Assembly (NCBI RefSeq): GCF_002025255.2
Contig: NZ_CP054587.1
Span: forward strand, 372,001-436,000
Reading direction: 5' to 3'
Length of the DNA: 64,000 nucleotides
From: Halolamina sp. CBA1230
GTDB lineage: Archaea; Halobacteriota; Halobacteria; Halobacteriales; Haloferacaceae
Shown in pieces: positions 42,336-42,450 of this stretch. A program made the translations under genes and the position numbers. The notes beneath the pieces were generated by a model. The model saw only the letters and a list, made by a program, of their open reading frames with translations, did no database searches and was not told the origin of the DNA. Every line of letters starts with the position of its first letter. The stretch's first letter is position 1.

Positions 42336-42359
42336 TGTAGGGGTCAGGCTGCCCCTACA
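42336..42359 (-). promoter_or_regulatory. Candidate attenuator hairpin in the ilvB leader
   Basis: A perfect 8-bp stem (TGTAGGGG/CCCCTACA) with an 8-base loop. On the minus-strand RNA the first arm is made from the last codons of the leader ORF (end of an Ile codon, GUA, GGG, first base of GCA), and the UGA stop lies in the loop. A ribosome held on the Leu-Ile-Ile-Val codons would cover this arm. No U-rich tract follows, so the output could be termination or altered access to ilvB. Function is inferred. Confidence 0.55.
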
Positions 42360-42412
42360 ATGATGAGCGAGACGCTGACGCCGAGCGAACCGGTGTGGCG
42401 TCGGCGCGTCAT
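42344..42412 (-). CDS. Putative ilvB leader peptide (22 residues)
   Basis: ATG at 42412, TGA at 42344-42346. The peptide begins MTRRRHTGSLG and ends SVSLIIVGAA, with consecutive Leu-Ile-Ile-Val codons just before the stop. Starting 24-29 bases upstream of its ATG is a TATA box (TTATCA) preceded by a purine-rich BRE-like GAAAAG, so the mRNA probably begins at this ATG and the peptide would be its first translated unit. It overlaps the hairpin at 42336-42359 and ends 71 bases before ilvB. Confidence 0.6.
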   Translation of the reverse strand: MTRRRHTGSLGVSVSLIIVGAA

Positions 42413-42435
42413 GGGCGGAGCGATGGCAGCGACCG

Positions 42436-42450
42436 TGATAACTCTTTTCG
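42436..42450 (-). promoter_or_regulatory. Promoter of the ilvB operon (BRE and TATA)
   Basis: On the minus strand CGAAAAGAG (42442-42450) is followed at once by TTATCA (42436-42441). Distance from TATA to the leader ATG at 42412 is 24-29 bases, ideal for a leaderless haloarchaeal transcript. It shows that ilvB has its own promoter separate from leuA. Confidence 0.65.

Follow-up and report, generated by a model that had tools for sequence, protein, structure and literature searches.

We propose that a leader-peptide element in front of ilvB in haloarchaea of the order Halobacteriales probably couples the expression of ilvB and ilvN to the supply of charged Ile- and Val-tRNAs. The architecture of the element was established by comparison of homologous loci, and from it we infer the sensing, the sign of the response and the output step.

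The window, i.e. the whole 64-kb stretch of Halolamina sp. CBA1230 DNA that was analysed, carries the element between leuA and ilvB, with all features on the minus strand. The minus-strand gene order is leuA (43756-42515), the gap, ilvB (42273-40459, acetolactate synthase large subunit, the putative regulated gene) and ilvN (40462-39728, acetolactate synthase small subunit, overlapping the end of ilvB); ilvD runs from 43865 in the direction opposite to leuA-ilvB-ilvN. The identities of these four genes were checked against NCBIfam: ilvB matched TIGR00118 (E=3e-205) and ilvN matched TIGR00119 and NF008864, all above cut-off, and LeuA scored under the curated cut-offs with unambiguous family membership. 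In the gap, a BRE/TATA-like promoter of the leader transcript (CGAAAAG..TTATCA, 42450-42436, kept in other Halolamina) is located 24-29 nt upstream of the ATG at 42412, which opens an apparently leaderless ORF of 22 codons (MTRRRHTGSLGVSVSLIIVGAA and stop, 42412-42344) containing the Ile-Ile-Val codons ATC ATT GTA (42364-42356), the conserved core being ATT GTA. The last sense codons form the 5' arm of the P2 hairpin UGUAGGGG-CAGCCUGA-CCCCUACA (42359-42336), a perfect 8-bp inverted repeat of the form UGUAGGGG-N8-CCCCUACA, and the leader UGA (42346-42344) supplies the final three bases of its loop; this stop codon ends 70 nt upstream of the ilvB ATG (42273). A second predicted stem-loop, P1 (42412-42363), pairs the mRNA 5' end with the segment before the Ile codons and, in the fold of the window leader, takes in the start codon. 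Immediately 3' of P2 lies a C/U-rich tract that is predicted to be unpaired (42335-42316). The P2 hairpin pattern occurs once in the window vs 0.06 occurrences expected; the folding z of the window leader is -3.0, and the mean for 106 homologous leaders is -3.1. A preliminary description of this DNA had reported the promoter, the 22-codon ORF with its Leu-Ile-Ile-Val end, the 8-bp hairpin with UGA in the loop, the position of ilvB and the lack of a U-tract, and it was accurate in every checkable detail.

The ilvB loci for comparison were picked by IlvB protein similarity without using the motif, and comprised 7 Halolamina loci, 80 named genomes and 24 further Haloferacaceae loci, with slight overlap between the sets; among named species, the nearest relatives are H. 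rubra and H. salifodinae. The element was scored as present wherever AT(T/C)-GTA-GGG and a subsequent CCC stood upstream of ilvB and a stop in the same frame came no more than 27 nt on. It was present at 109 of the 110 haloarchaeal ilvB loci with sufficient upstream DNA, the remaining locus being a close variant, and since the loci share descent such counts overstate their independence. By set, the element was found in 7/7 Halolamina, 79/80 named genomes and 23/24 further Haloferacaceae loci, the exceptions being L070 in the named genomes, with just 124 bp of upstream DNA, and L119 in the Haloferacaceae, with the near variant I-I-G-R-V-G-A-P before the stop. The promoter is conserved as a TATA-like box 17-35 nt before the first in-frame ATG (112/117 scorable loci). 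In a genome-wide search, the strict ATT form was detected in 207 of 293 Halobacteriales genomes, nearly always in one copy, with few matches for the reversed control; this strict pattern misses Halorubrum-type leaders, which have ATC, and patterns requiring the exact stem miss many genera, which relaxed patterns recover so that the element is found everywhere. Outside Halobacteriales only scattered, chance-like pattern matches were seen, and the ilvB search of plasmids gave no match. On this distribution the element is an old, single-copy feature of Halobacteriales, because it occurs about once per genome within the order and in a chance-like manner outside it. A chance origin was rejected on the combined grounds of pattern rarity in the window, the genome search, the reading frame, the P1 complementarity, the folding z and the presence at 109/110 loci.

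The leader ORF is constrained in its frame and at its end. At 112 of 117 loci, the first ATG to follow the TATA-like box, at a distance of 17-42 nt, shares its frame with Ile-Val-Gly, and no stop interrupts that frame. The length of the ORF differs severalfold among loci; its end is conserved as Ile-Val-Gly-(Ala/Val)-stop. Whatever the length of the P2 loop, 115 of 121 loci have their stop 12 or 15 nt beyond the first base of the Ile codon, and five more have it at 27 nt, still in frame; those of the five that were inspected closely are of the Natrinema type, their stop falling immediately 3' of the stem. Across the family the stop codon thus falls in the P2 loop or just after it. The coding signature of the leader N-terminus appears weak: of the codon changes among 33 independent pairs, 132 were nonsynonymous and 58 synonymous, and substitutions at codon positions 1, 2 and 3 numbered 78, 74 and 94. 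Because nonsynonymous changes exceed synonymous ones and the third-position excess is weak, frame and start are seen to be kept and the peptide is not, which is the behavior expected of a leader peptide, where translation would matter and the peptide itself would not, unlike a microprotein. An apparently leaderless start is in keeping with the mapping data for Haloferax volcanii, where leaderless transcripts are given as the rule (72% of protein-coding transcripts, PMC4983044).

The two conserved codons differ in how much variation they allow. The Val codon is GTA in 108/108 non-redundant leaders vs 0.5% of the Val codons in ilvB, and the Ile codon of the same leaders is ATT in 79, ATC in 29 and ATA in none, ATT making up 6.5% of the Ile codons within ilvB genes. 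The codon before the conserved Ile is another Ile in 55/108, or the rarer CGT or GGT. The 108-leader set had been filtered for GTAGGG; the invariance of GTA is not circular, because in the unfiltered named-genome set every locus with enough upstream DNA also has GTAGGG. Base pairing does not account for it either, since GTA is retained even at loci whose partner bases in the 3' arm are lost. ATT and ATC are decoded by a single tRNA, Ile-GAT, and GTA is expected to have Val-TAC as its only reader; the tRNA loci examined include Ile-GAT, Val-TAC, Val-GAC and Val-CAC. The ATY/GTA degeneracy pattern would therefore fit selection on tRNA isoacceptors, a fit that falls short of proof. At all 108 loci the P2 5' arm begins with the Val codon, directly preceded by the Ile codon, a placement that would let a stalled ribosome block a hairpin, as is demanded of an attenuator. 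Leucine sensing at ilvB was rejected, the Leu codon seen in Halolamina not being conserved across leaders.

Of 108 loci, 107 have GGGG/CCCC as the P2 core, and the last has GGGC/GCCC, in which the two arms have changed in a compensatory way. The inner C-G / T-A pair covaries, and none of 5000 shuffles reached the observed count (uncorrected for relatedness). P1 is a second conserved stem that was newly found here, in which the first codons of the mRNA are predicted to pair with the segment before the Ile codon. The longest duplex that it can form has a mean length of 6.95 bp, against 5.31 bp in shuffles, and a duplex of at least 7 bp is seen at 57/107 loci vs ~13 expected. In Halorussus-like leaders the P1 arms CGACAGTC/GACTGTCG alternate with CGACGGTC/GGCCGTCG and CGACAGCG/CGCTGTCG, the substitutions in either arm altering the encoded amino acid; pairing holds for 97% of P1 cells in these leaders, and 0/500 shuffles match the two-stem covariation score. 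In a Halorubrum-centred alignment, where the covariation statistics are weak, RNAalifold predicts P1 and P2 unprompted. The window element matched nothing in Rfam 15 at E<=5, nor did any of seven leader loci, five of them at ilvB, reach the gathering threshold of a family; a T-box or other known RNA family was accordingly rejected for want of a match to any curated covariance model in Rfam.

Downstream of P2, the tract is C/U-rich and almost G-free over its first 16 nt in 108 loci, with local U enrichment. No U-tract follows P2 in the window and TTTT occurs within 45 nt in just 22/108 loci; an intrinsic U-tract terminator was rejected, as no terminator-like or consensus terminator site is found after P2. 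Sequence complementary to the P2 arms is scarcer than expected in the next 100 nt downstream (z -6.6 and -5.6 for the two arms), and no pairing of the leader or of a P2 arm with downstream sequence was found that is comparable to P1. A classical switch between mutually exclusive antiterminator and terminator was rejected on the same grounds, there being no antiterminator pairing and P2 arms that avoid downstream complement. Between P2 and the furthest upstream ilvB start there are 40 to 410 nt (median 133), which makes it unlikely that P2 occludes the start of ilvB directly. A CGCAYCG-like conserved stretch ~30 nt 3' of P2 is seen in most loci, between the C/U tract and ilvB; no pairing partner for it was found. 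Closer to the gene, a second mini-ORF overlaps or abuts the ilvB start at 75/106 loci and a Shine-Dalgarno (SD)-like motif is present at 52 (no chance baseline was computed for these counts), which suggests translational coupling. Examples such as L046, L050 and L055 are ~17 codons long with a stop overlapping the ilvB start (ATGA) and often an internal GGAGG; this mini-ORF is missing in Halolamina.

In the mechanism we propose, when Ile and Val are plentiful the ribosome would read to the stop in the P2 loop and leave, whereupon P1 and P2 would refold and downstream expression would be lowered. When Ile or Val is scarce, the ribosome would wait while ATY or the rare GTA occupies its A site; a ribosome footprint of standard size would then reach back over the 3' arm of P1 and forward over the 5' arm of P2, both hairpins would be open and ilvB would be on. 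Open hairpins should mean expression, because ilvB makes both of the sensed amino acids. As to the output, we lean slightly towards transcription ending prematurely within the C/U tract or beyond it, given that P2 lies far from ilvB and is insulated from that gene; if ribosome and RNA polymerase become uncoupled, the polymerase may be exposed to factor-dependent termination. The termination factor FttA prefers U-rich RNA and the idea of its exclusion is a hypothesis (both PMC11616081), and the tract after P2 is C/U-rich, unlike the U-rich site described for FttA in that work. Alternatively, translation or stability of the ilvB message might be reduced.

A translational output of this kind, in which P1, once refolded, would keep ribosomes from reinitiating at the 5' end and translation of ilvB would need ribosomes that have passed the leader, often via the second mini-ORF, is a possibility that we hold to be rather less than even; it is a variant of the tRNA-sensing leader proposed here, and the probabilities of the two overlap. 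It would explain why P1 pairs the first codons (in Halolamina including the start codon), why P2 has no U-tract and why a small ORF, with or without an SD-like motif, so often lies at the ilvB start, these last counts being without a chance baseline; it is harder to reconcile with a P2-ilvB distance of 40-410 nt and with P2 arms that pair with nothing downstream. Arrest by the nascent peptide is unlikely. Here ..I-V-G-[AV] in the exit tunnel would stall the ribosome at the stop in a TnaC-like manner and so control P2, a free amino acid perhaps serving as the ligand, and tRNA charging would not be sensed. The invariant Ile-Val-Gly-Ala/Val end, the sole conserved peptide segment, would also fit such an arrest peptide, as would the almost fixed position of the stop. 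Against this, the stem dictates Gly and the next base, GTA is fixed as nucleotides in 108/108 leaders where an arrest peptide would tolerate any Val codon, the upstream residues diverge freely, unlike those of most arrest peptides, and the pheS and trpS2 leaders have cognate codons.

Readings that do without a sensing ribosome fare worse. That GTAGGGG-N-CCCCTAC is an operator for a branched-chain amino acid-responsive regulator (e.g. Lrp-like), with the ORF incidental, has little to recommend it beyond the fact that in Halolamina, and at about half of the loci, the palindrome is perfect and of a size that would suit an operator: there is about one site per genome (207/293 Halobacteriales genomes) at a single gene, with no regulon, the symmetry of the outer half-sites is lost in many genera that keep the in-frame ORF, GTA and stop, and P1 covaries as RNA. 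We give the same small weight to a translation-independent RNA that binds a ligand or protein (a riboswitch or an RNA-binding-protein site); two covarying conserved stems and the invariant ATYGTAGGGG would suit it, and the strict frame, stop and leaderless start codon over 109 loci, the degenerate third base of Ile and the lack of an Rfam match do not. A functional microprotein that happens to sit before ilvB is very improbable, for even if the ORF is conserved and apparently leaderless and has its own promoter, its N-terminus diverges (132 nonsynonymous vs 58 synonymous), its length varies and its conservation is limited to the hairpin codons.

A translation-sensing leader is the best reading, because its features are conserved, its stem core shows compensatory change and leaders with cognate codons occur at pheS and trpS2. 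The evidence that would speak against it is the absence of a U-tract and of antiterminator pairing, the variable distance from P2 to ilvB and the several genes without a comparable leader. The preliminary description had suggested a ribosome-mediated attenuator responding to Leu, Ile and Val, to be checked by alignment across haloarchaea. In that alignment the ORF, the Ile-Val codons and the hairpin are conserved (109/110), with compensatory changes in the stem core, and so the ribosome-sensing leader stood in respect of the ORF, Ile-Val, the stop in the hairpin and the promoter; it did not stand as a classical switch, nor with leucine as a sensed part, only Ile-Val being conserved. It had remarked that the geometry is unlike the classical bacterial design; the comparison shows no mutually exclusive hairpins and an extra conserved 5' stem, P1.

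Leaders of a related kind were found at other genes. At pheS, a mini-ORF with Phe codons beside the stop is present in 21 of 30 loci (L181-L210; 739-814 in L187), reading MAPDTAARTHRHAADGRGVGFFFA and stop in this genome and ..GFGFFF.. before the stop in many others, which makes it a possible Phe attenuator. The pheS leaders are apparently leaderless and frequently structured around the stop codon. At trpS2, a mini-ORF with Trp codons is found at 5/6 genome loci and in three plasmid records (L241, L242, L244-L246, L331-L333), that of Haloferax mediterranei being MVSTSHANCWRWHAFREVDSIAV and stop; trpS2 encodes a second Trp-tRNA ligase, is often plasmid-borne and has the leader codons Trp-Arg-Trp. 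No comparable leader was found at ileS, trpC, hisG or trpS1, so the ilvB-type leader is not a general device. In the Haladaptatus-like genomes G147, G266 and G284 (L165-L167), a second copy of the ilvB-type leader (MRQLDTDSHTAPASGGAVGARLIVGV and stop, plus hairpin) precedes not ilvB but a conserved ORF of ~45-55 codons that ends in ..MADVDHTPP(H/R)EAPGANRVFERGNEGRR and stop and is followed by a T-rich stretch. At the start of leuA in the window (43751-43680, minus strand) there is an apparently leaderless ORF, MSHDTEGASGTPADRVLPGHAEN and stop, out of the LeuA frame. Such an out-of-frame ORF carries an invariant GTT-CTY at 77/77 loci (L031-L110), and at 58/78 loci there is no ATG, GTG or TTG in the LeuA frame within 130 nt; leuA is a candidate for +1 recoding at a rare Leu codon.

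Whether these leaders form a haloarchaeal class of their own, spread throughout Halobacteriales at ilvB, with relatives at pheS and trpS2 and a leucine-linked recoding at leuA, we consider evenly balanced. In the design of such a class, the bases before the sensing codons would close a hairpin at the 5' end, the sensing codons would open a second one and the stop would be placed in its loop, with neither antiterminator nor U-tract. If true, Archaea would gain their first established case of leader-peptide attenuation; no earlier report was found in the open-access literature, subscription journals lying outside the scope of the search. If an entire archaeal order has such a leader almost without exception, ribosomes in archaea would be passing information on tRNA charging to gene expression, for which transcription and translation must be coupled or linked in some equivalent way. 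The leaders of the aminoacyl-tRNA synthetase genes suggest a wider regulatory layer, overlooked because very short ORFs are seldom annotated. The leader is open to direct testing in Haloferax volcanii, a species amenable to genetics.

Leader-peptide attenuation is a textbook mechanism of bacteria, and E. coli ilvGMEDA and ilvBN have ribosome-mediated attenuators. Such branched-chain attenuators are also described for Corynebacterium glutamicum ilvBNC (PMC11857589) and for the ilv leaders of Listeria and Staphylococcus aureus (PMC5864092, PMC5794164). The H. volcanii data include, in Table 2 of PMC4983044, mapped 5'-UTRs with uORFs of 26 aa at pheS and 23 aa at the Trp-tRNA ligase gene HVO_A0127, a table that gives no codon or attenuation reading and does not list ilvB; the agreement with our pheS and trpS2 leaders is supportive, not proof, lengths alone being compared. 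For leuA2 (HVO_1510), a start-codon problem has been noted and ribosomal slippage from an out-of-frame ATG under leucine lack speculated (PMC8305020), which concerns a neighbor gene in the same pathway, but leuA recoding and not the ilvB leader. In Corynebacterium, the ilvB-II motif is a conserved uORF upstream of ilvB that is reported to regulate the ilv operon (PMC10272879); this bacterial motif shares its uORF position with the haloarchaeal leader.

Like the bacterial ilv attenuators, the haloarchaeal leader has a short 5' ORF with branched-chain codons before a branched-chain gene, and a hairpin whose folding would depend on ribosome position. Unlike them, it is archaeal and apparently leaderless, has two insulated hairpins and no mutually exclusive antiterminator, places its stop in the hairpin loop without a U-tract, and has essentially one Ile and one rare Val codon in place of a long run; because the antiterminator and U-tract features are missing, it is not classed with them. 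The other point of comparison is the E. coli tnaC type, in which a leader peptide controls factor-dependent termination. The haloarchaeal leader differs from that type in its archaeal host, Archaea being without Rho to our knowledge, and in that termination is putative. FttA, as noted, prefers U-rich RNA (PMC11616081). What the haloarchaeal leader shares with the tnaC type is a short ORF whose stop lies beside a C-rich, G-poor unstructured tract.
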